From NCBI RefSeq assembly GCF_900637195.1, contig NZ_LR134356.1, positions 930,001 through 994,000 on the forward strand: 64,000 bases of DNA, read 5' to 3'. The notes under the pieces were generated by a model. It worked only from the letters and a program-made list of their open reading frames with translations, had not been told where the DNA came from and searched no databases. The DNA comes from Mycolicibacterium aurum (GTDB lineage Bacteria; Actinomycetota; Actinomycetes; Mycobacteriales; Mycobacteriaceae). Both the position numbers and the translations under genes were made by a program. Shown here piece after piece: positions 6,928 to 40,769 of the stretch (positions are counted from its first letter, which is position 1; every line of letters starts with the position of its first letter).

Positions 6928-7623
6928 TCAGTGGGCGTGGTCGCCGTGGTCGCCGTGGCCGGCGTCCGCCGGCACCGCCGCGGGCAACGGGGCAACGAGT
7001 GGCGCCGGTGTGGCAGGCGCATCGACAACCGTGACGACCCGCGGTGACGCGGGGGCGGGATGCGGCTCGTGGTGGTCGGTGCCCGGCCCGTGATGATCCA
7101 CGTCCGCGACGGCGGGCCCGTGATGGCCGTGCCGCATGCCCGACGCGACGCCGACCGTCGACGCCAGCGCCACGACGGCGACGGCACCGACGGCGATGAG
7201 CGCCGTGGCGTGTGCGGGTATCGGCGCTCCGCGATAGCCGCGGTGCCACACCCAGCCGGCTCCCATGATGACGTAGACCTGAAGAAGTAGTGCGCACAGA
7301 TCCGCGGCCTGGATCAGCTCGGCGGTTCCGCCGTGCGGGCCGAACGGTGCGCCTGCGGTCCGCGACAACGCCCAGAGCGCGATGGCACCCCCGTTGATCA
7401 TGATTCCGGCGGCGAGCACCGGCGCGGTGGGCCGCGACAGCACCAGGGCCGCCCAGGTGAGCTGGAAGAGCGCGAGGAAGACGAAGAACAGGCCCGACAG
7501 AATCCACTCCTGCCAGTGCGTCGGGACGACCGCGAAGTGGATCACCGCCGCGCCGAGCGACGCCAACGCTGCCAAGCGTCCGGCGAGCCTGCTGTCCGTC
7601 GTGAAGGCGGGTCTGGGTGTCAC
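6928..7623 (-). CDS. membrane protein with His-rich C-terminal tail
   Basis: A 231-residue integral membrane protein of no family I can name. It has about five hydrophobic helices: residues 14-30, 40-62, 68-88, 105-127 and 138-160. A hydrophilic tail follows that is rich in His, including MRHGHHGP, DVDHHGP, DHHEPHP and the C-terminal HGDHGDHAH. His pairs of this kind commonly bind Zn, Cu or Ni, but metal binding is inferred only. It sits upstream of a response regulator/kinase pair and near a Met/His-rich DUF305 lipoprotein, a context that fits metal sensing or storage. Paired direct repeats lie in its promoter region. Confidence 0.75.
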   Translation of the reverse strand: MTPRPAFTTDSRLAGRLAALASLGAAVIHFAVVPTHWQEWILSGLFFVFLALFQLTWAALVLSRPTAPVLAAGIMINGGAIALWALSRTAGAPFGPHGGTAELIQAADLCALLLQVYVIMGAGWVWHRGYRGAPIPAHATALIAVGAVAVVALASTVGVASGMRHGHHGPAVADVDHHGPGTDHHEPHPAPASPRVVTVVDAPATPAPLVAPLPAAVPADAGHGDHGDHAH

Positions 7624-7699
7624 GCGTCCGATGATGGCAGCGCGCGGCGCGATAGTGACCAGGTGACATCACATCGCCACCTGACCGAGATACCCCCGT

Positions 7700-7737
7700 C
7701 ACCGCGGCACATCACCCTGTCCACCGCGACATATCAC
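7700..7737. promoter_or_regulatory. paired direct repeat, possible response-regulator site
   Basis: Two 16-base copies, CACCGCGGCACATCAC (7700-7715) and CACCGCGACATATCAC (7722-7737), match at 14 of 16 positions and are spaced 22 bases apart, about two helical turns. They lie 77-114 bases upstream of the His-rich membrane protein start and at the very end of the mksB coding region. A related ACATCAC occurs at about 7664-7674. Tandem half-sites at this spacing are typical of OmpR-family regulators. That the local response regulator binds here is inference. Confidence 0.35.
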
Positions 7738-13283: not shown

Positions 13284-13462
13284 CTGACCCCTTGCTCTGT
13301 GTTCATCGTGCCCGTGCCGGTTCGCCGACGCCCCAACATAGGCCACGGCGGGGACATCACCGGGTTGGGGGACGGGAGTGTCGCGAGGCTTCCCGACGGT
13401 GTATGTGACGGGTGTGACCAGCGAGATTGCAGTGCGTTCTGGGGCTGAGGAGACCGTCGCCA

Positions 13463-13513
13463 GAGTGCACACACGGTCGTGATTCCGCGCGATCCACGAC
13501 CCTGTGTGCACGC
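13463..13513. repeat. intergenic stem-loop element
   Basis: An inverted repeat with 19-base arms: GAGTGCACACACGGTCGTG (13463-13481) pairs with the complement of 13495-13513 with two mismatches around a 13-base loop. It lies in the 267-base divergent gap between mksF and the alpha/beta hydrolase gene. It has no trailing T-run and is between diverging genes, so a simple terminator is unlikely. It may be a dispersed REP-like element or a regulatory palindrome. The rest of the gap shows nothing else I can name. Confidence 0.6.
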
Positions 13514-13550
13514 TCGCGGAGCCTCACGTCCTCGTGTCAGGATGGCGGTC

Positions 13551-14297
13551 ATGACGGTGGTGTTCGTACACGGCAATCCGGAGACCGACGCGATCTGGGG
13601 GCCGTTGCTCGCGGTGCTCGGCCGCGACGATGTGGTGCTGCTGTCGCCGCCCGGCTTCGGCGCCCCGCTGCCCGACGGGTTCGGCGCGACCTTCCTGGAA
13701 TACCGCGATTGGCTGGAGGCCGAGTTGGAGAAGCTCGACGGCCCGGTCGATCTGGTCGGACACGACTGGGGCGGCGGGCACGTCGTCAACGTCGTGATGC
13801 ACCGGCCCGAACTGATCCGTAGCTGGGCCACCGACGTGGTCGGGCTGTTCGACGAGGACTACGTCTGGCACGACATGGCTCAGGTGTGGCAGACCCCGGG
13901 TGCGGGCGAGGAGATGCTGCAGAACATGATCGGCGGCGGCCTGCCCGCACGCACGGAACTGATGGTCTCGTTCGGTTTTCCCGAGGACGTCGCGGCGGCC
14001 GTGGCCGAACATCAGAACGACGACATGATCACGGCGATCCTGGCGTTGTACCGGTCGGCGGCCCAGCCGGCGATGGCCGACGCGGGCCGCGCGCTGGAGT
14101 CGGCCGCGACTCGACCGGGGCTGTCGCTGTTGGCGACCGCGGACCCCTTCATCGGCCAGAGTGACAATCGGCGACGCGCCGCCGACCGGGCGGGTGCGCG
14201 TACCGAAGTGCTTGAGGGCCTAGGCCATTGGTGGATGCTCGAAGATCCGCAGCGCGGAGCTGCGGCGCTGACGGAATTCTGGGCCACCCTGGAGTGA
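13551..14297 (+). CDS. alpha/beta hydrolase
   Basis: A 248-residue alpha/beta-hydrolase fold protein. It has the oxyanion HGNPETDAIW motif early, a nucleophile elbow GHDWGGGHVV in which the position usually held by Ser or Asp is Asp (haloalkane-dehalogenase/epoxide-hydrolase style GHDWG), and a late GLGHWWMLEDP that supplies the catalytic His. The Asp nucleophile suggests an epoxide hydrolase or haloalkane dehalogenase-like enzyme, though the cap is short. ATG 13551 has AGGA at 13539-13542; ATG 13542 is possible. It is convergent with the next gene. Confidence 0.8.
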   Translation: MTVVFVHGNPETDAIWGPLLAVLGRDDVVLLSPPGFGAPLPDGFGATFLEYRDWLEAELEKLDGPVDLVGHDWGGGHVVNVVMHRPELIRSWATDVVGLFDEDYVWHDMAQVWQTPGAGEEMLQNMIGGGLPARTELMVSFGFPEDVAAAVAEHQNDDMITAILALYRSAAQPAMADAGRALESAATRPGLSLLATADPFIGQSDNRRRAADRAGARTEVLEGLGHWWMLEDPQRGAAALTEFWATLE

Positions 14298-14313
14298 GGG
14301 TGCGAGGGGTCGC

Positions 14314-15456
14314 TCAGGACATCGGTACCGGGGCGGGCTTGCCCGCGGTGATCAGCTCTTCGCCCTGCTCGTAGTCGTCGTCGGCGTTGCAGGTGAGCAC
14401 GCCCACGACGGCGCCGTCGGACTCGTACCAGACGGTGAATCCGCCGGTCCGCTCGATCAGCCGGCTCCGCTGGTAGCCGTCTCCCCAGGCGTGGTACTTG
14501 ACATCTGTATCGCCGATCGTGGTCCAGAAGCCGGGAACGCCGGACCATGTCGCGTCGTCGTCGCCGGCGGCTCGCGCACCGGCGATCTCGCCCTGGTCTG
14601 CGGCGTCCTGCCAGTGCTCGACGGCGAGCGCCCGGCCTGCCCCCGCATTGACCGCGAATGCCACGTCGCCCGCCGCGTATACGCCGTCGAACCCGGTGCT
14701 CATATCGGCGCCGACCGGAATGTGACCGTCCCGCAATGTGATTCCGGCGGCCTCGGCCAATCCGGCGTTGGGGCTGACGCCCGTCGCGGCGAGGACCAGG
14801 TCAGCATCGAGCACCGTGCCGTCGTCGAGCTGGACAGAGCCGTCGCGCAGAGACGTGACCTTCGTGCCTCCGATGAATCGCACCCCGGTGGCCTCGACGA
14901 GCCGCAGGAGCTGCTTTCCCGCCTCGTCGCCGAGCCGTTTCTGCTGCGGCGCCTCGTCCGGGGCCACGAGAGTCACGGAAAGACCCTGTGCGGCAAAGGA
15001 AGCAGCGGCCTCGCAGCCGATGAATCCCGCCCCGACCACGACGGCGGTTTTCGCGGAGTTGGTCGCCTCGCGCAGGCGCTTGGCGTCGTCGAGGGATCGC
15101 AACTGCAGGGCCTGGTCGCCGCCCGGCACCGGCAGCGGTACCGGACTGGCCCCCGACGCCAGCACCAGTGACTCATACCGGTATTCGGCGTCACCTGCAG
15201 TGACAATCCGGTTGCTCAAGTCGATGTGCTGGACAGGTGTGCTCAGGTCGGTCGCGAGTGGTGTCGTGATGTCCATCGCGACGTCGTCGGTGTGGCCGCG
15301 CAGGAACTCCTTGCTCAGTGGCGGGCGCTGATAGGGCTGCTGGGTGTCGGCGGTGAAGATCCGCAGCGGGGCGTCGGGCCTGCGCGCGCGGAACGCCTCC
15401 GCGGCGCCGATGCCGGCCGGTCCACTTCCTATCACGATCAAGCCTGCGTCACTCAT
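14314..15456 (-). CDS. FAD-dependent NAD(P)H:ferredoxin/rubredoxin reductase-like oxidoreductase
   Basis: About 380 residues. A pyridine-nucleotide-disulphide-type reductase fold with FAD motif VIGSGPAGIGAAEAF at the N-terminus, NAD(P) motif VVVGAGFIGCEAAASFAAQG near 140, and the second FAD motif GVYAAGDVAFAV near 265. It has no redox-active CxxxxC pair, so it matches the ferredoxin/putidaredoxin-reductase group that passes electrons to an iron-sulphur protein or P450. It resembles the family in order and length (about 400). The partner is not nearby. ATG 15456 is used; GTG 15462 is an alternative. Confidence 0.85.
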   Translation of the reverse strand: MSDAGLIVIGSGPAGIGAAEAFRARRPDAPLRIFTADTQQPYQRPPLSKEFLRGHTDDVAMDITTPLATDLSTPVQHIDLSNRIVTAGDAEYRYESLVLASGASPVPLPVPGGDQALQLRSLDDAKRLREATNSAKTAVVVGAGFIGCEAAASFAAQGLSVTLVAPDEAPQQKRLGDEAGKQLLRLVEATGVRFIGGTKVTSLRDGSVQLDDGTVLDADLVLAATGVSPNAGLAEAAGITLRDGHIPVGADMSTGFDGVYAAGDVAFAVNAGAGRALAVEHWQDAADQGEIAGARAAGDDDATWSGVPGFWTTIGDTDVKYHAWGDGYQRSRLIERTGGFTVWYESDGAVVGVLTCNADDDYEQGEELITAGKPAPVPMS

Positions 15457-15512
15457 GCGCACCGACTACCCACCGCTGCCCGGGTACACACCGCGACATC
15501 AGCCCGTGGGTG

Positions 15513-15647
15513 TTACCGCCGCTGTGGCGGGCCCGGGTCGGGCGTGGTGGCAGGTCCCGGAGCGGTATCGGGAAGGTCGTCGGGCACGAGGCGCTCGGGC
15601 ACCTCGGTCGGGGTGAGGCGTTCTGGCGGCTCGGTAGGTGCAGTCAT
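15513..15647 (-). CDS. possible small Pro-rich protein (44 residues)
   Basis: An open frame of 44 codons from ATG 15647 to TAA at 15513, in the 230-base gap between the amine oxidase and reductase genes on the same strand. It begins MTAPTEPPERLTPTEVPERL and is almost entirely Pro, Thr, Glu and Asp, ending PPQRR. It contains an internal near-repeat, PPERLTPTEVPERLVPDD. No strong ribosome site is seen. It could be a short spacer-encoded peptide or chance; no family is recognised. Confidence 0.35.
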   Translation of the reverse strand: MTAPTEPPERLTPTEVPERLVPDDLPDTAPGPATTPDPGPPQRR

Positions 15648-15686
15648 GACTACGGCGTACCCGGCCGGGCCGCCTGGCAACCGGAA

Positions 15687-17051
15687 TCAGACGTGCGTCA
15701 TGGCGTCATGTTCGACGACCTCGAGCGCCGCCCGTTCGCCGGAGCGCACGGCGCCGTCGATGAATCCGTACATGTGTGCCGACGATTCTGTTCCGGCCCA
15801 GTGAATCCGTCCGCACGGCTCGCGCAACGCATGTCCGAACTCGGTGAGCACGCCGGGTGGAGCGTGGCAGATCATCCCACCACCGGAATAGCGCTCCACG
15901 GTCCAGTTCTGTTCGACGTAGTCGATCGGTGACAGCGCTCTGTCCCCGAACCGTTCGGCGACCGCGGACAGCATCGCCTGCCTCCGTTCGTCGGCGCCGA
16001 GCGTGCACAGCCGTCGCGCGTCGGGACCTTCGGTGATAGCTGTCAGGATCCCGGATGTTGCTGTGTCCGTGCAGGAATCGATGGTGAGGTTGGCGAACGT
16101 GCCGGGCCCGAACGACTGGCCGGACAGCCCGTCGGCCCGCCACCAGGGCTCGTCGTAGATCATTGCGATCTTGAACACCGCGCCGCTGGGCATGCGCTGG
16201 TGCAGGAAGTGACGATCCACCGACAGCAGCGGCTCGTAGATGATCTGCGAGGCGATGCAGAGCGGTACGGCGACCACGACCCGACGGGCCCGCACCGCCA
16301 TGTCGTCCGAGCGAACGCTGACGCTGTCGGCGTCCTGAGTGATGCTGCGCACGGGCTGAGACGGGTGGACGGCGTCGCCGAGTTCGGCGGCGATCGCGCG
16401 GTAGATCGCGCCCATGCCCCCGACCGGCCGGGCGTCCTCGGCGGCATCTTTCACTCCGAGGACGAAGCCCGGCCCACCCGAGCACGCCATCTGGTAGAGC
16501 GCGAACAGCAGCGAGACCTCGGAGGCGGCCGAGGTATACAACCCGGCGACGGCGGACTCCAGCAGCTGCCGTGCGGGCTTGGACAACGTGTGGCCCTCGA
16601 CCCACTTGGCCCATGTCAGTTTGTCCCAGTGCTTAGCCTTGGGCGCGTTCCACGGCGCGTCCGCCGGGATGGACTTGCACATCTGGGTGAGCTCGAGGAA
16701 CACCGCACCGATGTTGGCGACGGCGAACGGACTCATGGTCAGCGGGATGGTGCCGTGGTATCTGTACGTCTTGCCGTCGATGCACATCATGGCCTGACCC
16801 TCGGCGTACTGTTTGTACTCCGGGATGCCGAATTCCTGCATCAACGCGTAGATCCGATCCTGCCCCGGACCGATCCACGCGCCGCCTCGGTCGATCCACG
16901 AACCGTCCGAGCGGGTCTCGGTGAATGTGCGCCCGCCCACCCGGTCGCGGGCTTCCAACAGCGTCACAGAATGTCCGGCCTGCTTGAGGCGCAGCGCGGC
17001 GCTCAACCCGGCGAAACCCGCACCCACCACGCAGTAGTCCACGTCCACCAT
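15687..17051 (-). CDS. flavin monoamine oxidase family protein
   Basis: A 454-residue FAD-dependent amine oxidase. The N-terminus has the dinucleotide-binding CVVGAGFAGLSAALRLKQAG and RDRVGGRTFTE, and DRGGAWIGPGQDRIY follows. The C-terminal flavin signature IHWAGTESSAHMYGFIDGAV closes the FAD site. These match the MAO/putrescine-oxidase group, which oxidises primary or secondary amines to imines with release of hydrogen peroxide. Length is typical. Neighbours give little hint of the amine. A GC-rich hairpin precedes the start by about 55 bases. Confidence 0.9.
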   Translation of the reverse strand: MVDVDYCVVGAGFAGLSAALRLKQAGHSVTLLEARDRVGGRTFTETRSDGSWIDRGGAWIGPGQDRIYALMQEFGIPEYKQYAEGQAMMCIDGKTYRYHGTIPLTMSPFAVANIGAVFLELTQMCKSIPADAPWNAPKAKHWDKLTWAKWVEGHTLSKPARQLLESAVAGLYTSAASEVSLLFALYQMACSGGPGFVLGVKDAAEDARPVGGMGAIYRAIAAELGDAVHPSQPVRSITQDADSVSVRSDDMAVRARRVVVAVPLCIASQIIYEPLLSVDRHFLHQRMPSGAVFKIAMIYDEPWWRADGLSGQSFGPGTFANLTIDSCTDTATSGILTAITEGPDARRLCTLGADERRQAMLSAVAERFGDRALSPIDYVEQNWTVERYSGGGMICHAPPGVLTEFGHALREPCGRIHWAGTESSAHMYGFIDGAVRSGERAALEVVEHDAMTHV

Positions 17052-28326: not shown

Positions 28327-30699
28327 TCAGTTCGGCGCGTGGGTGGCGAGCCAGGTGAAGAACTCGTCGGCACAGAACACCGGCTTGCCGTACTCCTGCG
28401 CCTTGCGGGCCTTACCCGACTGCGTGCCTGCCTCGGCCGTCACCAGCACGTCGCAGCGGGTCTTGGTCACCGTCTTCACCGGCACCAGCCCGGCCGCGGC
28501 GGCCAAGAGCTCCATGTCGTCGCGCTCGACGATCCGGCCCGCGGGATCCTGGGCCGTGCCGGTGAAACAGATGCGCGCACCGGAGGTCAGCACCCCGTCG
28601 ATGTCGTGCTGGACGAGAAGATCTGCCCCGGTGAGGATCTCGACACCGAGAAGTTCTTCGGCCGCCTGCAACCGGGACACCACGTCGTTGGTCAGCTGCA
28701 CCCGGCCCGCCGCCGCCCGCAGCTGATCGGCGACCGACTGCCGCGCCGCGGCCTCCCAGCCGGTGTCGTCGGCACGCTGCGGTGCCGCCCCGCCCAGCAG
28801 TACTGCGCCGACGTCGCGGCTGATCCGCATCAGCGCCGACAGGCCCGGCAGGTGATCGGCCACCGGTGTCGCCACCGTGGAATCCCGGCTGACCAGCAGC
28901 CCTGCCGCCTCGACGGCTTCGGGTTCGTCGAAGGCCGACGAGCCGGCCTCCGCTTCGGTGACCCGGTGGGCGTCCAGCGCCGAGCGGGCCCGCTCCAGCG
29001 CGGTGCGGCCCTGGATACGGGTACCGCGCAGTTCCACTCCCAGCGGCATCGTCGTCACATATCCGAGCCGCTTGAGCTCGAAATCGAGCAGGCCCAGCTG
29101 CTCGTCCACGCCGACACCCACTGGCGTGCACCCCGCCAGCATCGGCGCGATCACCGCCCACGCCTCCCGCAGCGTGGGTGCCAACAGCACGTCGGACACC
29201 GTGATGCCGAATGCTGTTCGCGCGTCAGCGAGATCGCGCTGCGGGTTGATCAGCGTGGTCACCGCGGTGCCGTCGTCGAACGCCACCGCCAGCTCGACGG
29301 GGCGGGGCCGCGACATGCGGCCCTCGTCGCCGACCGTCAGCATGCCGATCGCGCAGTACCGCCGCGCGCCGGAGTCGCCCGCCGGGGTGCGCAGGAAACG
29401 TGCGATCCGGCGATCCGTCTTCAGATCCTTTGGCAGCACAGGTCTTTTCAGCACCAGCCCAGCCAGCGACGTGCACCGGCTCAGCGCCACGTACAGCTGA
29501 CCGGTGGAGAACATGCCTCCGGTGAGGTCGACGACCACCCGGTCCAGCGTCTGCCCCTGGCTCTTGTGGATCGTGATCGCCCACGCCAACTTGAACGGCA
29601 GCTGCGTGTACGACCCGACCACCTCCCGGCCCAGTGACGCGCCCGAGGCCACCGGCCGCGTCACCTCCCACGTGAACGGCGAGACGTCCGCGCTCGTACC
29701 GTCCGGGAATTCGACCTCGACGACGGCGCCGTACCGGTCGTAACCCACTCCGGCGACGCGGCCGACGGTGCCGTTGACCCAGCGGTTGCCCTGGTCGTTG
29801 TTGAGCATCATCACCTGCGCGCCGACCTTGAACCGCAGTGTCTCCTCGACCGGTGGGTCGAACAGCGCCAGGTCACCCGAGGCCTTCGCGTGGTGCACCA
29901 TCTCGTCGCCGGGGAGCCGCTCCAGCTGCTGGCGGTTGCGGGCCGTGACGAGTCGGTTGGTCGGCGCCAGCGTCAGCCAGAACTCGTCGTCGGGTGGGAC
30001 GAAGTCCTTGTCGGCGCGCGCATTGAGCTGCTCCTGGGCGTGCCCGAGGAGCACACCTTCGCGGATCTCGTTGAGAATGGCCGTCATCCGGTCATCGCCG
30101 AGCTGACGGAACACCGTCGTCAGCGACACCGTCGGGAAGTCGTCGCGGTGGAACGAGCGAGCCGAGAAGAAGTACGGGGTCTCGTAGGTGGTCGTGAAGT
30201 AGCCGGCTTCGTCCTCGCGGACCACCGGCGGCAGCTGATACAGGTCGCCGACCAGCACGATCTGGACGCCGCCGAACGGCGTGCCCGGGGCAGGCCCGAA
30301 TCGCTCCAGGGCCGCGGCGACCATGTCGAAGACGTCGGCACGCACCATCGACGCCTCGTCGATGATCAGCGTCTGCAGCGAGGCCAGCGTCTTGGTGAAC
30401 CGTCCCGGCCGGTACTCTCCGCGCCGGATCTCGTCCAGCGTCGTCGTCGAGCGGAAACCGAACATCCGGTGGATCGTGTAGCCGTCGACGTTCAGCGCGG
30501 CGATACCCGTCGGCGCCACCACGACCACGTGGCGATCGGTGTCGGCCATGAAGCGGCGGATCAGCGTCGACTTGCCCGTGCCTGCCTTGCCGGTGAGGAA
30601 TACGTGCCTGCCGCCGGCCAGCAGGTCCAGCGCGGAGCGGAACTCCTCGGTCAGGACGAAGCCGGGCATGGACGCCCAGATTACGCGCGGCCTGCTCAT
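28327..30699 (-). CDS. Pif1/RecD-like helicase with DnaQ-like segment and BRCT domain
   Basis: 790 residues. The N-terminal SF1B helicase core has Walker A GKAGTGKST (37-45), Walker B LIIDEASM (111-118), VLVGDLYQLPPVV, and C-terminal HKSQGQTLDRVVVDL (378-392) and YVALSRC (403-409), typical of Pif1 and RecD2. A middle segment (about 467-560) resembles a DnaQ exonuclease but keeps few catalytic acids (AVAFDDGTAV, GVDEQLGLLDFELKRLG), so is probably inactive. A BRCT domain ends the protein (about 707-790, ARICFTGTA to EYGKPVFCADEFFTWL). It likely resolves DNA structures at forks. It is divergent from the DUF732 gene. Confidence 0.85.
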   Translation of the reverse strand: MSRPRVIWASMPGFVLTEEFRSALDLLAGGRHVFLTGKAGTGKSTLIRRFMADTDRHVVVVAPTGIAALNVDGYTIHRMFGFRSTTTLDEIRRGEYRPGRFTKTLASLQTLIIDEASMVRADVFDMVAAALERFGPAPGTPFGGVQIVLVGDLYQLPPVVREDEAGYFTTTYETPYFFSARSFHRDDFPTVSLTTVFRQLGDDRMTAILNEIREGVLLGHAQEQLNARADKDFVPPDDEFWLTLAPTNRLVTARNRQQLERLPGDEMVHHAKASGDLALFDPPVEETLRFKVGAQVMMLNNDQGNRWVNGTVGRVAGVGYDRYGAVVEVEFPDGTSADVSPFTWEVTRPVASGASLGREVVGSYTQLPFKLAWAITIHKSQGQTLDRVVVDLTGGMFSTGQLYVALSRCTSLAGLVLKRPVLPKDLKTDRRIARFLRTPAGDSGARRYCAIGMLTVGDEGRMSRPRPVELAVAFDDGTAVTTLINPQRDLADARTAFGITVSDVLLAPTLREAWAVIAPMLAGCTPVGVGVDEQLGLLDFELKRLGYVTTMPLGVELRGTRIQGRTALERARSALDAHRVTEAEAGSSAFDEPEAVEAAGLLVSRDSTVATPVADHLPGLSALMRISRDVGAVLLGGAAPQRADDTGWEAAARQSVADQLRAAAGRVQLTNDVVSRLQAAEELLGVEILTGADLLVQHDIDGVLTSGARICFTGTAQDPAGRIVERDDMELLAAAAGLVPVKTVTKTRCDVLVTAEAGTQSGKARKAQEYGKPVFCADEFFTWLATHAPN

Positions 30700-31746: not shown

Positions 31747-31785
31747 GGCAGAACAATCCTGCCGCACCCCGTTAAGTTGGCAGAC

Positions 31786-32412
31786 GTGAGTGTGACGCCG
31801 GGGGATCTGACAGGAACGGAACGGGCGGTGCTGCTGGTGCTGATGGCCGAATCGCGGCCGGTACCCAACCCGGAACTGGCCGCGCTGGGCCCTGCTCTGG
31901 ACAAACCCGGCCGAGACAAGCTCAACAGCCTCGGTCTGATCGAATCCGAGCGTGTCGGAAACAGATTCGTCCACGAGCTCACCGACAGCGGCTGGCGACT
32001 GTGCCGCGATCTCGTCGATGCAGGACCGCCGCCTCGCTCGACCGGTTCGGCAAAGACGGTCTACACCGTGCTCGGCGCCCTCGGCCGGTACCTGAGCCAC
32101 GCCGACCTCAGCCTGGCCGACGTCTTCGGCGTCACCGAGTCGTCCATGGCGGCGTCCACCACCGAGGACCGAATCCGCGACGCGTACGGGCGGCTGGCAC
32201 CGCGCCCCGGTGGCTGGGTCTCGCTGACCCGGCTGCGCGCCGAGTTGGACGTGCCCCGCACCGACGTCGACGCCGCGCTGGTCGCGCTGCACCGCGCGCC
32301 GGGCGTCAGCGTGATCCCGCAGGAAGACCAGAAAGTCCTGACCGCCGAGGACCGCGCCGCGGCCGTCGTCATCGGGGATCGGGCCAAGCACCTGATCGCG
32401 ATCGAGGCGTGA
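31786..32412 (+). CDS. winged-helix-like protein paired with AAA/HerA ATPase
   Basis: A 208-residue protein of no family I can name. The first 70 residues look like a MarR-type winged helix (TGTERAVLLVLMAESRPVPN, LNSLGLIESERVGNRFVHEL, TDSGWRLC), and a second helical unit follows after residue 100 (VFGVTESSMAAST, RLRAELDVPRTDVDAALVAL). It may bind DNA or serve as a kleisin/MukE-like adaptor. GTG 31786 is used; TTG 31777 is possible. The stop shares its A with the ATG of the next gene, so the two are coupled. Confidence 0.6.
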   Translation: MSVTPGDLTGTERAVLLVLMAESRPVPNPELAALGPALDKPGRDKLNSLGLIESERVGNRFVHELTDSGWRLCRDLVDAGPPPRSTGSAKTVYTVLGALGRYLSHADLSLADVFGVTESSMAASTTEDRIRDAYGRLAPRPGGWVSLTRLRAELDVPRTDVDAALVALHRAPGVSVIPQEDQKVLTAEDRAAAVVIGDRAKHLIAIEA

Positions 32413-35400
32413 TGGACGCGCTCCACCGGGATGCGCTCGCCTCGCTGCGGCTGACGTGGGCACCGACGTCGGACGACCTGTGGCGACCCCAGGCGGCCAC
32501 CCACGTGACGGGCCTCAACGAGCACGCCGTCGACGACGTGATGGATGCGTTCGGCGACGCGCTGCGCGTTGAGACGTCCAATCCGCTGGGAGTCGTCATC
32601 CGCGGCCCGGCGGGATCGGGCAAGACCCACCTGCTCGGCCAGATCCGCGAACGCGTGCAGGCCGACGGCGGCTTCTTCTTCGTCGTCGAACTGCTCGACG
32701 CCGCCAGCTTCTGGCAGTCGGTGCGCAGCGGCATCCTGGAGAGCCTCGGCCGCCCGGGCGCTCAGCGCGAGACGCAGCTGAAGGACCTGCTGTGGGAGCT
32801 GTCGTCGCTGGCGCACGTCTCGCGTGCCGATCGCCGGGCCATCATCGGTGACGACGACCTGGACGCCGAGACGCTCTACCGCTTCATCAAGGCGATGTCA
32901 TCGGCCGCGAAAGAGACTGTGCGGCAATGTCATCAGACGCTGCGCGCGCTGGTACTGCTGGGGTCCAACGACTTCATCGCCCACGACATCGGTGAGGGCT
33001 TCCTGCAGGGCAGTGAGGAGTTCAGCGTCGAAGAGCGCGGCCCGTGGGGATTGCGCGCGGCGCCGGCGTCGGCGCAGGAGTGCGTCCGCGACATCACGCG
33101 TCTGGTCGCGCTGGCGGGACCATCGCTGCTCGCCGTCGACCAGATCGACACGCTGCTGGCGCAATCGCTGGCAGGGACTGCCGGAGACGGGGTACTCGAG
33201 CAGGTCGCCCACGGGTTGATGTCGTTGCGGCAGACGACGCGGCGCACCGTGCCGGTGGTAGCCTGCCTGCCCGCGGTGTGGGAACACATTCAGGACCGCG
33301 CCGCAGCCAGTGTCGCCGACCGCTTCCGGATGACCGGCGTGCTTACACCGTTGCCCAGCGCCGACGTCGGCCGCGCCATCCTGGAGCGCAGGTTCGCCGC
33401 GAGCTACGCCTCAGCAGGATTCACGCCGCCGTATCCGAGTTGGCCGCTGGCGCCGGCGGCGTTCGAGGAGGCGCCGTCCTACACGCCGCGCCAGTTGCTG
33501 ATCCGGGCCGACACCCACGTGCGGGAGTGCCTCAAGCACGGCGACGTCGTCGAGCTCGAACGCTTGAGCGCCGATGCGCAGCCGTCATGGGAACCGCGTG
33601 ACGTCGACGGAACAGCCTCGGCCTCTTCGGCTTTGGACCGGCGGTTCGCCGAGTACCGGCGGCGGGCGGTGCCCGAGGCAGCGGTGGCGCACGACGGCGA
33701 GGACATCACGATGCCCGAGCTGCTGTCGGCGGCGTTGCGGGCATGGATCACCGAGCGTGACGGCGAGAGCACGTTCGTGTCCGATCCGCCGCCGGGGACC
33801 CACGTCATGCTGCACGCCCGGCTGCGCGAAAGCCTGGACAGCGACACCGACGACGAGCGGCACTGGGCGTTCCGTGCCATCGCGGCGACCAACGCCAGCG
33901 CTGCCCTGAGCCGCATACGGAAGGCGTTGACGGCCACCGGGTTCACGTCCGGATCGGACCGTCGACACCTGTTCCTGCTGCGCAACGCGCCGTGGCCGAG
34001 CGGTAGGACCACCGCTGCGGAGATCGACGCATTCCACGCGGCCGGCGGGCGTACCCTGCCGCTGTCGGAAGATGACGTGCGCACCATGACGGCGCTGCGG
34101 GACCTGATCAACGACGACGATCCCGAACTGCCCGCGTGGCTGAGGGCCCGCAGACCCGCCCACGGGCTGAGGTTGCTGGCGGACACGCTGGCGGCCGACG
34201 ACGACGCGCCCGAGCCCGTGGCCGTCGTGGCAGACGACGAGCCAGAGTCTGCTCCTGAACCCGTCGCCGACTACACCGTCTCCGCGACGGAGATACCCCT
34301 CGGTCTGGATCTGACAACCGAAGAGCCTGTGACCATTCCGCTGTCGGCGCTGCGTAAGCATGTCGCGATCTTCGCCGGCTCCGGGTCGGGCAAGACGGTA
34401 CTGATCCGCCGCCTCGTCGAGGAGTGCGCGCTCCGGGGCGTGTCGTCGATCGTGCTCGATCCCAACAACGACCTGTCCCGGCTGGGGACGGCGTGGCCGC
34501 AGCAGCCGTCCGGATGGCGGCAGTCCGACGACGCGCGTGCCGACGACTATCTGACCAACACCGATGTCAAGATCTGGACGCCGCGCCGAACCAACGGCCG
34601 CCCGCTGTCGTTCCAGCCGCTACCCGACTTCTCCAGCGTCGTCGACGATTTTGACGAGTTCACCGAGGCTGTGGAATCGGCATGCGAGGCGCTGGAACCG
34701 CGGGCCCTGATATCGGGGAAGACACAGAAGGCCACTCGTGCTCGGGCTGTACTCCGGGAAGCGTTGCAGCACTTCGGCAGAACATCGGAGCCGACGCTCG
34801 GCGGGTTCATCCGGTTGCTCGCCGACCTGCCCGAGGACGTCAGCGACATTGCGGGTGCGCATGAGATCGCCGGTGACCTGTCGCAGAACCTGCGGGCGGC
34901 GATGGTCAACGACCCGATGTTCGGCGGCGGCGGTACGCCCGTCGACCCGGGAGTGCTGCTGACACCGTCCGACGGACACCGCGCCCGGGTATCGGTGATC
35001 AGCATGATCGGTCTGTCCTCGGACGACCAGCGGCAGAGTTTCGTCAACCAGCTGCAGATGGCGCTGTTCGCCTGGATCAAGCGCCATCCGGCCGGTGATC
35101 GCCCGCTCGGCGGCCTGCTCGTGATGGACGAGGCCCAGAACTTCGCGCCCGCCAAGGGATTCACCGCGTGCACCCGCAGCACGCTGGCGCTGTCGTCGCA
35201 GGCCCGCAAATACGGCCTCGGCCTGGTCTTCGCGACGCAGGCGCCCAAGGGCCTCAACCACAACATCCCCGGAAACGCCGCCACGCAGTTCTACGGGCTG
35301 CTGAACTCACCCGCCCAGATCGACACGGCCCGCGAGATGGCCCGCGCCAAAGGCGGATTGATCGATGACATCAGCAGGCTGCGGGCCGGCAACTTCTACG

Positions 35401-35513
35401 TCGCGACCGAGGGTGAGTCCTTTCACCGGGTCGTCGCTCCGTGGTGCCTGTCCCACCACCCGGCGAGTCCACCGTCAGCCGAAGACGTGCTCGCCCTGGC
35501 GACTTCGGCGTGA
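32412..35513 (+). CDS. large ATPase with N-terminal AAA and C-terminal HerA/VirB4-type domains
   Basis: 1033 residues with two P-loop ATPases. The N-terminal AAA unit has Walker A GPAGSGKTH (65-72) and LLAVDQIDTLL in a Walker B-like position, followed by a helical lid region. After an acidic linker (about 590-630, DDDAPEPVAVV and on) comes a HerA/DUF87-type motor with Walker A GSGSGKTVLIRR (656-662), VLDPNNDLSR, Walker B GLLVMDEAQNFAPAK (about 902-908), ATQAPKGLNHNI and the Asn-rich sensor. It would be a DNA- or protein-translocating motor with an ATP-switch front end, probably a hexamer. Translation is coupled with the winged-helix gene. No nuclease sits beside it. Confidence 0.8.
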   Translation: MDALHRDALASLRLTWAPTSDDLWRPQAATHVTGLNEHAVDDVMDAFGDALRVETSNPLGVVIRGPAGSGKTHLLGQIRERVQADGGFFFVVELLDAASFWQSVRSGILESLGRPGAQRETQLKDLLWELSSLAHVSRADRRAIIGDDDLDAETLYRFIKAMSSAAKETVRQCHQTLRALVLLGSNDFIAHDIGEGFLQGSEEFSVEERGPWGLRAAPASAQECVRDITRLVALAGPSLLAVDQIDTLLAQSLAGTAGDGVLEQVAHGLMSLRQTTRRTVPVVACLPAVWEHIQDRAAASVADRFRMTGVLTPLPSADVGRAILERRFAASYASAGFTPPYPSWPLAPAAFEEAPSYTPRQLLIRADTHVRECLKHGDVVELERLSADAQPSWEPRDVDGTASASSALDRRFAEYRRRAVPEAAVAHDGEDITMPELLSAALRAWITERDGESTFVSDPPPGTHVMLHARLRESLDSDTDDERHWAFRAIAATNASAALSRIRKALTATGFTSGSDRRHLFLLRNAPWPSGRTTAAEIDAFHAAGGRTLPLSEDDVRTMTALRDLINDDDPELPAWLRARRPAHGLRLLADTLAADDDAPEPVAVVADDEPESAPEPVADYTVSATEIPLGLDLTTEEPVTIPLSALRKHVAIFAGSGSGKTVLIRRLVEECALRGVSSIVLDPNNDLSRLGTAWPQQPSGWRQSDDARADDYLTNTDVKIWTPRRTNGRPLSFQPLPDFSSVVDDFDEFTEAVESACEALEPRALISGKTQKATRARAVLREALQHFGRTSEPTLGGFIRLLADLPEDVSDIAGAHEIAGDLSQNLRAAMVNDPMFGGGGTPVDPGVLLTPSDGHRARVSVISMIGLSSDDQRQSFVNQLQMALFAWIKRHPAGDRPLGGLLVMDEAQNFAPAKGFTACTRSTLALSSQARKYGLGLVFATQAPKGLNHNIPGNAATQFYGLLNSPAQIDTAREMARAKGGLIDDISRLRAGNFYVATEGESFHRVVAPWCLSHHPASPPSAEDVLALATSA

Positions 35514-35526
35514 GAGGAGCTCGACT

Positions 35527-36579
35527 GTGTCCCATCGTTACGTCGTGATCGGTGCCGGTGCCATCGGCGGGACCATCGGCGGCGTGCTCGCCCGCGCCGG
35601 TGCCGACGTGGTGCTGGTGGCCCGCGGCGCGCATGCGCGTGCCCTCGCCGACAATGGTCTGACGCTGCGCACCCCCGACGGCGCGTTCCAGATCCCGGTC
35701 TCTGTCGCCGCGGCTCCGGACGAGGTCCGCCTGACGGCCCGCGATGTCCTGGTGTTCGCGACCAAGACCCATCAACTGGACGCTGCGCTGCAGGAGTGGG
35801 TCGACCGGCCGGTGTTCGACGGCGACGCCGCGGTGGGCAGCGCAGGTGAGGTACTGCCTGTCCTGGCGGCCCTCAACGGCGTTGTGGCCGAGGACAAGGC
35901 GCTGCGCTTCTTCGCCAGGGTCTTCGGAGTGTGCGTCTGGATGCCTGCCGCCCACGTCACACCCGGCGAGGTGATCACGAAGTCATGGCCGGTGGCAGGA
36001 CATTTCCACGTGGCACGCTGGCCTGCCGCCCTGGCGACGCCTGAGGACCGTGCGCTGCTCGAGGACATCGCCGCCACCTGGACGCCGGCCGGCATCCTCG
36101 TCGCGCTCCCGCCCGACGTCGCACCGTGGAAGTACAACAAGCTGCTGAGCAACCTCAGCAACGCCGTTGTCGCACTGACAGGTTCGGAGCGCGACGGCGA
36201 GGTCGCCACTGCGGTCAGGAACGAGGGCGAGGCGGTGCTGGCGGAGGCCGGCATCGAGTACGTGTCGTTCGAGGTGTCGACCGCCGCTCGCGCACAGGGC
36301 CCGACGATGCGGCCGGTGGCCGGCGCCGAGGAGGTGATCTCGAACTCGACGTGGCAGTCCCTGGCCCGCCGCAGCGGCAGCGTCGAGACCGATTTCCTCA
36401 ACGGTGAGATCGTGCGCATCGCACACGGGTGCGCAGCTGCAGCGCCGTTGAACACGGCCCTGGCCCGGTTGGCCAGGGACACCGCGCATTCCGGCCGCGG
36501 CCCCGGGGAGCTCGCTGAACACGAGCTCGCCAAGCTGCTGGGCCTGACCGATGGTGCCGCCACCGAGAGGGACTCATGA
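35527..36579 (+). CDS. 2-dehydropantoate 2-reductase-like (PanE family) oxidoreductase
   Basis: A 350-residue NADPH-binding protein of the ketopantoate-reductase family. Rossmann motif VVIGAGAIGGTIGGVLARAG stands at the start, then DVVLVARGAHARALADNG, the Lys of ATKTHQLD, and a C-terminal helical domain with PWKYNKLLSNLSNAVVAL. Start GTG 35527 follows GAGAGGAGC. Its stop overlaps the sulfurtransferase start (ATGA), so it may act in sulphur or alpha-keto acid metabolism and not in pantothenate synthesis. The substrate is unknown. Confidence 0.85.
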   Translation: MSHRYVVIGAGAIGGTIGGVLARAGADVVLVARGAHARALADNGLTLRTPDGAFQIPVSVAAAPDEVRLTARDVLVFATKTHQLDAALQEWVDRPVFDGDAAVGSAGEVLPVLAALNGVVAEDKALRFFARVFGVCVWMPAAHVTPGEVITKSWPVAGHFHVARWPAALATPEDRALLEDIAATWTPAGILVALPPDVAPWKYNKLLSNLSNAVVALTGSERDGEVATAVRNEGEAVLAEAGIEYVSFEVSTAARAQGPTMRPVAGAEEVISNSTWQSLARRSGSVETDFLNGEIVRIAHGCAAAAPLNTALARLARDTAHSGRGPGELAEHELAKLLGLTDGAATERDS

Positions 36580-37412
36580 GCGCTCGTGATCAGGTATTCG
36601 TCACCGCCGCCGAGTTGGCGCGCAGGCTCGACGCCGGTGAGCCCATCACCCTGCTGGACGTCCGGTGGTCACTGCCCCAGCCCGACGGCACCGCGGCCTA
36701 CGCGGCAGGCCATCTGCCCGGGGCGGTGTACGTATCGCTGGACGATGAACTCACCGACCACAGCGTCGACGGGCGCGGCCGCCACCCACTACCCTCCGGA
36801 TCTGCCCTGCAGGAAGCGGCGCGGCGCTGGGGTGTCCGTACCGGGGTCCCCGTCGTGGTCTACGACGACTGGAACCGCGCAGGGTCAGCCCGCGCCTGGT
36901 GGGTGCTGACCGCGGCGGGCATCGCCGATGTCCGCATCCTGGACGGCGGCCTCGCTGCTTGGAACGGTGAATTGGAGACCGGCTCAGTGACTCCCGAGCC
37001 CGGCGACATTGCCGTCGCGCACGAGGACCTATATGCCGGGGCGCGCAGCGCCGTCACTGCAGACGAGGCCGTCGACTCGCCGGTACTTGTCGATGCCCGC
37101 GCACCCGAGCGCTACCGCGGCGACAACGAGCCCGTCGACACGGTCGCAGGGCACATTCCGGGCGCGGTGAACGTGCCGAGCACCAGCCTGCTCACCGCCG
37201 GCGGTGCCCTGCTGCCGGACGCCGACCTGACCGACCTGTTCAGCGCCAGTGGCGTGCGACCCGGGGCCGCCGTCGCGGCGTACTGCGGATCGGGCGTGAC
37301 GGCGGCGGTCGTCGTCGCGGCGCTGGCGTCGGTGGGCGTGGATGCGGCGCTGTTCCCCGGGTCGTGGTCCCAGTGGAGCGCAGAACCCGGCCGCGAGGTG
37401 GCACGCGGCTGA
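36576..37412 (+). CDS. rhodanese-type sulfurtransferase (two-domain)
   Basis: A 278-residue tandem rhodanese. The N-terminal inactive copy has ITLLDVRWSLPQPDG and AGHLPGAVYVSLDDEL. The C-terminal active copy has VLVDARAPERYRGDNEPVDT, AGHIPGAVNVPSTSLL and the catalytic loop AAYCGSGVTAAVV, whose Cys carries the persulphide. It transfers sulphur from thiosulphate or 3-mercaptopyruvate. The start overlaps the PanE-like gene by 4 bases. A stem-loop element follows 8 bases after the stop. It is one of three sulfurtransferases in this region. Confidence 0.92.
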   Translation: MSARDQVFVTAAELARRLDAGEPITLLDVRWSLPQPDGTAAYAAGHLPGAVYVSLDDELTDHSVDGRGRHPLPSGSALQEAARRWGVRTGVPVVVYDDWNRAGSARAWWVLTAAGIADVRILDGGLAAWNGELETGSVTPEPGDIAVAHEDLYAGARSAVTADEAVDSPVLVDARAPERYRGDNEPVDTVAGHIPGAVNVPSTSLLTAGGALLPDADLTDLFSASGVRPGAAVAAYCGSGVTAAVVVAALASVGVDAALFPGSWSQWSAEPGREVARG

Positions 37413-37420
37413 CGTTCTCT

Positions 37421-37474
37421 GGCGATTTGGGCGTGCCAGGGGGCGCCAGCGGCAACCCAGCACGCCGAAATCGC
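37421..37474. repeat. dispersed stem-loop repeat, copy A
   Basis: Arms GCGATTTGGGCGTGCC (37422-37437) and AGCACGCCGAAATCGC (37459-37474) pair over about 15 bases with one internal mismatch, around a loop containing GGCGCCAGCGGCAACCC. A second copy with the same loop lies at 53119-53170. Placed just after the sulfurtransferase stop, it could act as a terminator or a REP-like element. Coding of the following flavoprotein begins some 20-100 bases later. Confidence 0.75.
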
Positions 37475-37496
37475 AGAAAGAATCGCGGCGATTGCA

Positions 37497-39128
37497 TTGC
37501 TGTCGGGACGCCCCGCGATCGGGAAGGATTGCCGGGCGGCGCAACTCGGCGCCGCGCACCCCGGGAAGGCGACTCGACTGACCACCTCGCGAGAAGCCGA
37601 GACCCTCGCAGCTGACGTGCTCGTGATCGGCGGCGGACCCGCGGGCACGTGGGCGGCGATCAAGGCCGCGGAGGCCGGTGCCGATGTCATCGTCGCCGAC
37701 AAGGGGTACACGGGCGCCAGCGGCGCGACGGCGTCGGCCGGGACGGGAGTCTGGTACGTCGACGACGTTCCCGAACTGCGTGAGGCCGCGATGGCCAAGC
37801 GTGAACTGATCGGTGGCCACCTCACCGACCGCCGCTGGATGAGCCGCGTCCTGGACGACACGATCGTGCGGATGGACGAGCTCGCGCGGATCCAGCGCTA
37901 CCCGTTCCCCGTCGACGAGAACGGCACCCAGATCCGCGAGGACCTCCAAGGTCCGGAATACATGCGACGCCAGCGGATTCGGCTGCAGCGCCTAAGTGTT
38001 CGCATCCTCGACCATACGCCCGCCCTGCACCTGCTGGCTGATCGCGACGGCACCGTCTCCGGCGCGGTCGCAGTCCGCCGCGCCGACGGGACCCGGGTGA
38101 GGATCACCGCGGGGGCGGTTGTGCTGGCCACCGGTGGGTGCGCGTTCCAGTCGAAGACCATGGGGTGCGACACCGACACCGGTGACGGCGCTCTGATGGC
38201 CGTCGAGGCCGGTGCGGTGCTGTCGGGCATGGAGTTCTCCAACGCCTACGCGGTGGCACCGAAGGACACGTCGATGACGAAGAACGCCTACTACGCGTGG
38301 GCGTCGTTCTACCGTGCCGACGGCTCCTTCCTCGAAGCCCCGGGCGCTACCAAGGACCGCAGGCTCATCGCGCAGACCCTCCTGGACGAGCCGGTGTACG
38401 CCCGCCTGGACCGGGCCGCCGAGTCTGACCGCGCCACGATGCGCACCGGACAACCGAATTTCTTCCTGATCTTCGACAGGCTCGGCATCGACCCCTTCAC
38501 CGACCTCTTCGAGATCACGCTGCTGTGCGAGGGTACGGTTCGCGGCACCGGTGGTGTGCGCATCGCCGGGAATGACTGCGCCACTGATGTTCCCGGGCTC
38601 TATGCGGCGGGTGACACGGCCACGCGACAGCTGATCGCGGGCGCCTACACCGGTGGTGGCGCGCACAACGCGTCCTGGGCCGCCTGCTCGGGAGCGTGGG
38701 CAGGCCGCGGTGCCGCCGACTTCGCCCATACCAGGGGACGGCCGCCGGAGCGGCTGACCGACGTGGGTGGCCTGGGGGTGGCACCGGAAGCGCTGCCGGA
38801 GGTTCGCCGCCTGTCGACGGCCTACGAGATCAACTACCTACGCCATGCCGACCGGCTGACGCCCGCGCTCGCCGAGCTCGACACCCTCTGGGGGACGGCG
38901 CGGGCCGGAACGGGGCTGCGTGCCCGCGAGACTGCCGCGATGCTGGCGCACGGCCGGTGGATGTATCACGCGGCACTGCGCCGTACCGAATCCCGCGGCA
39001 TGCACCAGCGATTCGACTTCCCCGACATCGATCCAGCGCAGCAGCAGCGGCTGGTCACCGGCGGCCTCGACGAGGTGTGGACCCAGCCCGAGTCACGCTG
39101 GCTGGCCGACCGGGAGCGCGCCGCATGA
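37497..39128 (+). CDS. AprA-like FAD-dependent oxidoreductase (fumarate reductase/succinate dehydrogenase flavoprotein fold)
   Basis: A flavoprotein of about 517-543 residues. The FAD motif is ADVLVIGGGPAGTWAAIKAA with ADKGYTGASGATASAG, then VVLATGGCAFQSKTMGCDT, and the second FAD contact VPGLYAAGDTATRQ. It resembles adenylylsulphate reductase alpha and related fumarate-reductase flavoproteins. It is translated as a pair with the 4Fe-4S ferredoxin (ATGA overlap), like AprAB. The start is uncertain. TTG 37497 gives an unconvincing Arg/Ala-rich leader; the homologous part begins near 37600, and CTG 37578 after GGGAAGG is an alternative. It may be a sulphur-linked oxidoreductase, not proven. Confidence 0.85.
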   Translation: MLSGRPAIGKDCRAAQLGAAHPGKATRLTTSREAETLAADVLVIGGGPAGTWAAIKAAEAGADVIVADKGYTGASGATASAGTGVWYVDDVPELREAAMAKRELIGGHLTDRRWMSRVLDDTIVRMDELARIQRYPFPVDENGTQIREDLQGPEYMRRQRIRLQRLSVRILDHTPALHLLADRDGTVSGAVAVRRADGTRVRITAGAVVLATGGCAFQSKTMGCDTDTGDGALMAVEAGAVLSGMEFSNAYAVAPKDTSMTKNAYYAWASFYRADGSFLEAPGATKDRRLIAQTLLDEPVYARLDRAAESDRATMRTGQPNFFLIFDRLGIDPFTDLFEITLLCEGTVRGTGGVRIAGNDCATDVPGLYAAGDTATRQLIAGAYTGGGAHNASWAACSGAWAGRGAADFAHTRGRPPERLTDVGGLGVAPEALPEVRRLSTAYEINYLRHADRLTPALAELDTLWGTARAGTGLRARETAAMLAHGRWMYHAALRRTESRGMHQRFDFPDIDPAQQQRLVTGGLDEVWTQPESRWLADRERAA

Positions 39129-39457
39129 TCGAAATCGTGGACGCGGATCGATGCATCACCTGCGACCGCTGCATCGAGGTGTGTCCGACGAGGGTCTTCG
39201 ACCGCGGCGAGGACGGGATCCCGGTGATCGCCCGCCACGACAGCTGCCAGACGTGCTTCCAGTGCGAGGCGTACTGTCCGGTGGACGCGTTGTTCGTTGC
39301 GCCCCTGGTGTATCCCGTGGCCGACGACTCGCGCTTCCGCGACGTCGACGCCCTGCAGGAAGCCGGCCTGATCGGCGGCTACCGGGCGGTGTTGGGCTGG
39401 GGACGAGGCCGGTCGCCGGGCGCCCGCAGCGCGGTGCAACCCCAGGCGCCGCACTAG
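39125..39457 (+). CDS. ferredoxin family protein, 2[4Fe-4S]
   Basis: A 110-residue bacterial ferredoxin with two Cys clusters: CITCDRCIEVCP near residue 10 and CQTCFQCEAYCP near residue 42, each able to ligate a 4Fe-4S centre. The C-terminus (LQEAGLIGGYRAVLGWGRGR and on) is extended, as in AprB-like partners. ATG 39125 overlaps the flavoprotein stop as ATGA. It would pass electrons to or from the flavoprotein. Convergent with the MFS gene, one base between stops. Confidence 0.93.
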   Translation: MIEIVDADRCITCDRCIEVCPTRVFDRGEDGIPVIARHDSCQTCFQCEAYCPVDALFVAPLVYPVADDSRFRDVDALQEAGLIGGYRAVLGWGRGRSPGARSAVQPQAPH

Positions 39458-39458
39458 G

Positions 39459-40769
39459 TCACGGCTGCGGGTCGTCCCGGTCGTAGTTCCGGAACGACGG
39501 CGTGCGGCGCGTCAGGAACCAGACCACCAGCAGTATGGCAATGCCGCCAGCGACCAGCGGGCTCCAGATCGCGAACATACTGGCGACCGCGCCGGTGACC
39601 ACATCGCCGACCCGCGGACCGCCGGTGACGATGATCGAAAAGATGCTCTGAACGCGACCCCGCAGGGCGTCAGGCACGGCGGCCTGCAGAATCGCCCCGC
39701 GGAAGATCGCGGACACCGCATCGGCGGCGCCACCGATCGCGAGCGTGATCGCAAGAGCAGCGATCGCCACGGTGTTGGTCCCAGAACTCGGACGAATCAC
39801 GGCAAGGAGCAGGATCACTCCCGCAACGGCGATCGTCGCGGCGTAGATGTAGGACACCACGATGATCGCGACGCCCTGACGTCGCACTGTGCCCGTCCAC
39901 CCGGAGAACAGGGAAATAAGCACCGCGCCCGCCGCGAACGACGCCGACAGCACGCCGACAGTGGTCACCCCGCCACCGAGGGTCACCGCCCCCAGCGCGG
40001 GGTACAACACACGGGGCTGGGCAAGCGCCATCGCGAACAGGTCGATCGTCAGCGCGAAGCGAATGTTGTCTGCACGGCGCAGGTAACCCAGCCCGTCGCG
40101 GACCGCGCGCAGAGCCCCCACCGCGGCAGCGCGGGTCTCGTCGAGCGGGCGCAGCGCAGGCAGCGCCCACACCCCGAGAAAGGCCGCCGTGTGCAGCACG
40201 GCGTCGATCAGGAACGCGGCCTGGAACCCGCCCGCACCGACCGCGGCGGCACCGATCAGCGGACCGAGCGTCGCCATCAGACCCATATTGATGCCGTTGA
40301 GTGCGCCTGCGGCAGGGAGCAATTCGCGGGGCAGCAGTCGCGGGATGATGGCGCGCCTGGTGATTCCACCGACGGTGCCCGCGACCGCGTTGACTGTCGC
40401 CGCCGTGTACAGCACCCACAACGAACTACCGCCGACGATGGCATGTACGGCCAGCACGACGATGGCCAGCCAGGAGATCACCGAGGCGATCATCGCCACC
40501 CATCGGCGGTCGAATCGGTCGGCCAGCGTGCCGCCATAGAGGCCGAGAATGACCATGGGTCCCAACGCGATACCGGCGATCAGCGACACGGCGAAGGTCG
40601 ACGATGTGATGGCATAGACCTGGAGCGCGACCGTGACGACGGTCATCTCCTGGCCGATGCTGCCGAGCGCCGTACCGAGCCAGAGCCGGGTGAAGGCCCG
40701 GCTGTGGCGAAATGGTGTCAGATCGAGAAAGACACGCCGCTTCCCCGTTCGTTCGGTCGGCGGCGTCAC
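39459..40769 (-). CDS. MFS transporter (MFS_3/EntS-like)
   Basis: A 436-residue MFS permease with about 12 helices. It opens FLDLTPFRHSRAFTRLWLG, with GPMVILGLYGGTLADRFDRR as the loop-2-3 motif, and ends TRRTPSFRNYDRDDPQP. Start GTG 40769 shares GTGA with the sulfurtransferase stop, so it is the second gene of that transcription unit. GTG 40802 would overlap far more. The pairing suggests export or import of a sulphur compound. The substrate is unknown. Confidence 0.87.
   Translation of the reverse strand: MTPPTERTGKRRVFLDLTPFRHSRAFTRLWLGTALGSIGQEMTVVTVALQVYAITSSTFAVSLIAGIALGPMVILGLYGGTLADRFDRRWVAMIASVISWLAIVVLAVHAIVGGSSLWVLYTAATVNAVAGTVGGITRRAIIPRLLPRELLPAAGALNGINMGLMATLGPLIGAAAVGAGGFQAAFLIDAVLHTAAFLGVWALPALRPLDETRAAAVGALRAVRDGLGYLRRADNIRFALTIDLFAMALAQPRVLYPALGAVTLGGGVTTVGVLSASFAAGAVLISLFSGWTGTVRRQGVAIIVVSYIYAATIAVAGVILLLAVIRPSSGTNTVAIAALAITLAIGGAADAVSAIFRGAILQAAVPDALRGRVQSIFSIIVTGGPRVGDVVTGAVASMFAIWSPLVAGGIAILLVVWFLTRRTPSFRNYDRDDPQP

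Follow-up and report, generated by a model that had tools for sequence, protein, structure and literature searches.

The stretch of DNA analysed here (the window) comprises 64,000 nucleotides of Mycolicibacterium aurum (contig NZ_LR134356.1, positions 930,001 to 994,000) and carries a pair of genes on its forward strand. Gene 1 (31786..32412) encodes a 208-residue predicted DNA reader with two winged-helix-like units, and gene 2 (32412..35513) a 1033-residue protein in which an Orc/Cdc6-like AAA+ ATPase is fused to a HerA/FtsK-like ATPase. We see a roughly even chance that this pair represents an anti-invader core without nuclease, which would grip and pump foreign DNA rather than cut it.

Both open reading frames had been proposed from the letters alone, in what we call the original prediction, as a 208-residue winged-helix protein and a 1033-residue double P-loop protein sharing one base (TGATG). 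Both are present as proposed, and the TGATG overlap at the gene 1 stop recurs in 56 of 80 called junctions, the window among them. A scan of genome contigs yielded 293 relatives, of which the best 80 serve as named loci here; the nearest of these are Mycolicibacterium with gene 2 identities of 84–85%. Outside annotated records, genes were called by a codon-usage caller trained on the window and the fetched loci, and starts are approximate. Gene 1 adjoins gene 2 at all 80 loci (at L144 the contig stops within gene 1). Furthermore, if the own genome and 60 relatives are considered, gene 1 and full-length gene 2 are confined to the identical 12 of 61 genomes. Such a constant partner supports the earlier idea of a DNA-translocase-type ATPase acting with a winged-helix protein.

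The upstream nuclease and its probable loss

The original prediction had regarded it as characteristic of the system that no nuclease accompanies the pair, which was not borne out. At 38 of the 80 loci a nuclease relative lies directly upstream of gene 1 on the same strand, in each case within an open frame of at least 290 amino acids; the caller missed or clipped six of these 38 frames, which a separate frame check found to be open. Measured from the first base of gene 1, the nuclease stop falls between -68 and +14 bases in 32 of the 35 cases called. A C-terminal DUF559 domain was found in all four operon-type representatives scanned, an annotated Tsukamurella record names the upstream gene DUF559, and a Methylobacterium plasmid record shows the identical three-gene order. 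Residues E250, D284, E295, D297 and H301, among others, are invariant in the 26 full-length copies chosen for alignment and are candidates for the active site.

Nuclease and gene 2 distances are correlated (r = 0.91 over 32 loci, Mantel p 0.001), and the mycobacterial nucleases form one clade (support 100/99). Because the nuclease co-diverges with gene 2 and occurs even in the outlying rows of Methylobacterium and Tsukamurella, and also in Rhodococcus, Streptosporangiales and Micromonosporaceae rows, the three-gene operon with a DUF559-type nuclease is likely to be ancestral, judged from the trees. For gene 2, a quick LG+G4 tree was computed. The long branches L147 and L148 meet in it, and L101 and L103 were omitted, their gene 2 having been called at 684 and 319 amino acids. 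Relatives of the Methylobacterium gene 2 belong mostly to Methylobacterium/Methylorubrum, with Lichenibacterium and Rhodopseudomonas in addition (best 120 of 275).

In the window, no nuclease match was obtained within 3 kb upstream of gene 1, and the gap between the preceding VTT gene and gene 1 measures 39 bp. Altogether, 32 of the 80 loci lack the nuclease and the other upstream genes tested for, namely 30 mycobacterial loci, L133 and L144 (contig edge). Within a mycobacterial clade of 40 rows, 31 are without the nuclease, seven possess it and two, L122 and L097, show scars. At L122, about 0.94 kb of the nuclease gene is swapped for about 70 bp between flanks 91–94% identical to L091, and genes 1 and 2 are called full length despite this deletion; the scar becomes visible only through alignment to near relatives. 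A search for remnants with the nuclease profile in 101 loci without full nuclease gave only L097 below 0.05, L001–L046 contributing no more than 1.2 kb upstream and several genomes being entered twice. The nuclease was probably lost several times in mycobacteria, this lineage included. This count of losses presumes no regain, a premise that the single mycobacterial nuclease clade favours without proving it.

Purifying selection continues to act on genes 1 and 2 where the nuclease is missing. Median ratios of nonsynonymous to synonymous substitution (dN/dS) for gene 2 are 0.149, 0.178 and 0.110 in three nuclease-less clades and 0.149, 0.125 and 0.202 in three nuclease-bearing sets, compared to 0.208, 0.360 and 0.165 versus 0.325, 0.220 and 0.253 for gene 1, all obtained by a simple pairwise method at median synonymous distances of 0.3–1.1 and hence rough. 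The gene 1 median exceeds that of gene 2 in all six sets. These values bear on the view that the pair is what neutral decay has left of a defence system. The vanished nuclease gene and the scars in L122 and L097 speak for such decay. However, median dN/dS of 0.11–0.36 in nuclease-less clades is similar to that of nuclease-bearing ones and the Walker motifs are intact, so that this already disfavoured explanation is very improbable.

The slot upstream of gene 1 is not reserved for the plain nuclease. At L183 (2846–4882) a TIR domain forms the N-terminus of the DUF559 nuclease in one fused protein (PF13676, 1.4e-34). A divergent STAND/WD40-type gene fills the slot in 8 of the 80 loci, which form a single tree clade, and is accompanied by a Trypco1-type gene in six of the eight; the STAND and WD40 regions were identified in the one copy scanned, that of L114. 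At L133 (7089–9257, Amycolatopsis) and L181 (3925–6150) the slot is occupied by a protein of 722–741 amino acids (48% mutual identity) with a P-loop-like GGSSxGKTRSL recognised by eye; Pfam gave no match to it. According to PMC10853773, related neighbourhoods with Orc/Cdc6 also include TIR and STAND. Nuclease, TIR-nuclease, STAND/WD40 and P-loop protein in one slot thus provide a natural effector-swap series on one sensor-motor core. As a separate observation, the L185 nuclease (3690–5843) bears an N-terminal extension similar in layout to that of the L183 fusion.

Architecture and known systems

The N-terminal half of gene 2 comprises a Walker A motif (residues 65–72, 32604..32627, plus strand as for all features of both genes) with K71 and T72 in 95 of 95 members, and a Walker B motif (residues 239–246, 33126..33149) reading D243-Q244-I-D246, in which D243, Q244 and D246 are likewise found in 95/95. 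AAA+ ATPases usually carry a Walker B glutamate where gene 2 has this glutamine. The sequence DRFR (residues 303–306, 33318..33329; R304 in 95/95) is a candidate arginine finger of the AAA+ half. It is followed by a middle alpha/beta domain (residues 430–550, 33699..34061) with the element order a-b-b-b-a-b-a-b in the secondary structure of the model, and by an acidic disordered linker (residues 597–616, 34200..34259) with a predicted local distance difference test score (pLDDT) below 50. The HerA/FtsK-like motor (residues 619–1028, 34266..35495) finds its closest folds in the DndH C-domain and HerA. Its Walker A (residues 655–662, 34374..34397; K661 and T662) and Walker B LLVMDEAQ (residues 902–909, 35115..35138; D906 and E907) keep these residues in 95/95. 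The catalytic residues of the second P-loop, whose absence would have spoken against the original prediction, are therefore intact. The motor also has an arginine finger, R932 (92/95), and a sensor Q943 (93/95) at 35205..35240.

The fold searches, which used the whole gene 1 and gene 2 models, matched gene 2 to the HerA complexes 8zit, 8xav, 8wld and 8j4u and to DndH, the latter over the motor only. Matches to VirB4 and TrwB leave the Orc-like AAA+ half uncovered. As a side observation, L182 possesses two adjacent gene 2 copies (6500–9709 and 11842–16185), and both arginine finger and sensor Q are lost in its longer copy (1447 amino acids) as well as in the 1412-amino-acid copy of L178.

Gene 1 begins with a MarR-like winged helix (residues 1–80, 31786..32025), and a second winged-helix-like unit (residues 126–206, 32161..32403), defined by secondary structure only, carries a conserved C-terminal HLIxI motif. 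Comparison against Pfam, NCBIfam, PHROG and PADLOC yielded no family except a sub-threshold DUF7158. Its winged helices suggest that the gene 1 product reads DNA. One might instead envision plasmid or conjugation control, with gene 1 as a TubR-like DNA-binding adaptor and gene 2 as a coupling-type ATPase. TubR is indeed found by the gene 1 fold search, but level with many MarR-type folds, and the AAA+ half lies outside the VirB4 and TrwB matches. In addition, the seven flanking genes scanned include none for transfer or partition; they match Pfam as rhodanese, FAD oxidoreductase, MFS, VTT, PIF1-like helicase, beta-eliminating lyase and isochorismatase. We thus consider this role improbable.

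The term 'undescribed system' in the original prediction was too strong, since the domain set closely matches predicted 'capture' systems. PMC10853773 (Nucleic Acids Res. 2024) predicts Orc/CDC6-HerA/FtsK systems of this name with an anti-invader role, composed of an Orc/CDC6 ATPase, an inactive and an active restriction endonuclease, HerA/FtsK and winged-helix proteins. Gene 2 shares with them the Orc/Cdc6-type ATPase and the motor with sensor Q and arginine finger, which are class features of HerA/FtsK according to the same text, and gene 1 corresponds to their protein containing two or more winged-helix-like units. A subset of capture systems comprises a fast-evolving winged-helix protein with two to four copies that is related to DndG/SspB (PMC10853773). 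There, the inactive restriction-endonuclease domain lies between the AAA+ core and a C-terminal winged helix. The element order of the middle domain of gene 2 is compatible with such a fold, for which it is a candidate in our model, while a profile search of PDB sequences gave two weak, unrelated matches and nothing else. The predicted active endonuclease gene is found in relatives only (38/80) and is absent from the window operon. Furthermore, the family nuclease is of the DUF559 type, a name absent from the main text of PMC10853773, and repeated nuclease loss in mycobacteria is not mentioned in the passages of that paper considered here. With both ATPase features present, the inactive endonuclease domain and a kinship of gene 1 to DndG/SspB no more than possible, and the active nuclease absent, we do not class the pair as a member. 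It likely works like the capture systems and descends from them, though as a unit it is no full member. The literature searched holds no description of a DUF559/two-winged-helix/Orc-HerA gene set; the supplement of PMC10853773, outside this search, may list it.

Other systems are less similar. DndH averages 1700 residues and eight domains including a nuclease (PMC10853773), whereas gene 2 has 1033 residues with an Orc-like AAA+ half and resembles DndH in the motor only. The seven flanking genes scanned showed nothing recognisable as DndF or DndG. A HerA-class motor is also common to the anti-phage complexes HerA-DUF4297 and HerA-Sir2 (Nezha). In both, a free-standing HerA is paired with an effector, while the gene 2 motor is fused to AAA+ and has a winged-helix protein as its constant partner; neither gene 1 nor any of the seven flanking genes matched DUF4297 or Sir2. 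MADS, a cluster of mad1–mad8 genes, is linked through the PADLOC mad8 profile (314 positions), which matches residues 627–1001 of gene 2 and thus the motor only (2.4e-23). However, Pfam detected neither a methyltransferase nor a kinase among the seven flanking genes. BREX-related capture systems, as described in PMC12839542, likewise combine HerA/FtsK with an Orc/Cdc6-type ATPase and winged-helix proteins, but carry PglZ, DUF6079 and DUF4007, which are not among the seven flanking genes scanned.

A possible defence role and its alternatives

We propose the following mode of action. The winged helices of gene 1 would recognise DNA and pass it to gene 2. Since Walker B reads D-Q in every member, the N-terminal AAA+ half would bind ATP and load or clamp on DNA with little hydrolysis. 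The C-terminal half, in which the motifs of a HerA/FtsK motor are found, would hydrolyse ATP and translocate the DNA. In relatives that keep the nuclease (once TIR-fused), this enzyme would then cut or kill. As the nuclease gene is absent in this lineage, the motor itself would keep the invader from replicating, becoming established or being transferred, or would recruit an unlinked nuclease. More specifically, one might tentatively speculate on nuclease-independent motor immunity, in which the AAA+ ring is frozen by D-Q as an ATP-bound clamp, HerA/FtsK pumps and the winged-helix reader guides, the nuclease having been discarded repeatedly because grip and pump suffice; this extension is possible, if somewhat doubtful. 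HerA-class immune motors are usually seen partnering a nuclease or an effector that consumes nicotinamide adenine dinucleotide. With an effector that was probably lost repeatedly and a reader and motor under strong selection, effector-free motor defence becomes directly testable, and rapidly growing mycobacteria are genetically tractable hosts for which many phages have been collected. Since D-Q in Walker B is invariant, each chain is moreover predicted to contain a switch ATPase and a motor ATPase.

The distribution of the pair is patchy. Gene 2 was detected in 54 of 198 genus genomes and, at the level of the class, in 32 of 296 genomes from 13 of 114 genera, and thus it is no conserved core gene. 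This is consistent with an anti-invader role, one of the options originally raised, and the defence role is what we infer. The pair lies in an accessory segment of about 7.7 kb (31764..39460) together with four further called genes: a ketopantoate-reductase-like gene (by eye), a rhodanese, an FAD oxidoreductase and a 110-amino-acid gene. The segment is absent from the relative G027, which is largely colinear and matches the window to 31763 and again from 39461 on, with 57 bp in between; from the helicase gene to the VTT gene, G027 is about 2.3 kb longer than the window.

A defence-island check with PADLOC, which the original prediction had called for, found 78 families near the system versus 32 far from it in 82 genes each, families and not genes being counted. 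Here, 82 near neighbours drawn randomly from 120 were set against all 82 far ones at 35 of the 46 loci L101–L146. Left out were L102, L104, L105, L106 and L122 (mycobacterial-clade rows) and, as close relatives of others, L110, L115, L127, L131, L136 and L141. The genes of the system itself (genes 1 and 2, nuclease, WD40, Trypco1) were excluded, the L133 P-loop gene stayed in the near set, and for the far set 25 of the 32 families were listed.

Several observations weigh against a nuclease-free defence core. Among the 25 near families listed (of 78), 21 are PD-T4-6 models, each matched by two genes, so that the higher family count does not establish enrichment in genes. No gene 2 relative was present in 50,697 phage records, and in viral contigs none of the 23 matches to two peptide patterns was a gene 2 relative. 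The neighbours of the pair are constant within a subclade, as would also fit a settled host function. Finally, the own genome (G000) has eight DUF559 matches, and their mean is 4.6 in nine pair-bearing genus genomes versus 3.3 in 28 pair-free ones, given without a significance test (8, 3, 9, 1, 2, 1, 5, 6 and 6 versus 1 to 7).

Because several such matches occur in G000 and other pair-bearing genomes, the pair might still work with a nuclease encoded elsewhere, for example a generic DUF559 protein, so that the enzyme was replaced or unlinked and not dispensed with. The dN/dS of the pair, unchanged without a linked nuclease, would agree with this, and the closest G000 match to the operon nuclease lies at C1:787019 (38% over 71 amino acids). 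However, this match spans only the C-terminal DUF559 part and the ranges of the counts overlap widely, and we regard the explanation as rather unlikely. Recruitment to a host task after nuclease loss, such as chromosome or plasmid DNA handling, would be favoured by conservation of the pair across many rapidly growing mycobacteria with neighbours that are stable within subclades. Such a task sits less well with only 54 of 198 genus genomes carrying the pair, with a close relative (G027) that lacks the segment and with neighbours that differ between subclades; it appears fairly unlikely as well.

Plasmids and neighbouring genes

Only three of 72,556 plasmid records contain a gene 2 match (Methylobacterium, Nonomuraea and Tsukamurella). 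Because the Nonomuraea 'plasmid' has 11.8 Mb and the Tsukamurella record carries ribosomal-protein genes, plasmid carriage comes down to Methylobacterium. The latter Tsukamurella record (L148, 'plasmid 22', 224 kb) harbours S10/spc ribosomal protein genes and may be a mislabelled chromosome piece or a bearer of essential genes.

The neighbouring PIF1-like helicase (28327–30699) was rejected as a partner of the pair. It occurs in 11 of 61 genomes, comprising five of the nine pair-bearing genus genomes and six pair-free ones; in G034 it is 1.8 Mb away from the pair, and in G019 and G028 the two are on different contigs. The helicase gene is itself patchy, and the neighbour genes of the window are absent around it in five of six pair-free genomes examined. 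Other neighbours were rejected as well: the flanks vary between subclades, and only the nuclease and, each within its own clade, the STAND/WD40 and P-loop genes recur in the slot.

Among the relatives, rplN-rpsQ is a repeated insertion site inside the ribosomal gene cluster. The system is located between rplN (L14) and rpsQ (S17) at eight Rhodococcus-type loci and in Tsukamurella (L148), while at a ninth Rhodococcus-type locus, L115, only the rpsQ side is visible (Rhodococcus-type loci: L107–L112, L115, L127 and L141). At L108–L112, L115, L127 and L141, a protein cluster (c48, mostly 400–460 amino acids) that is TerD-like by eye recurs beside the system.

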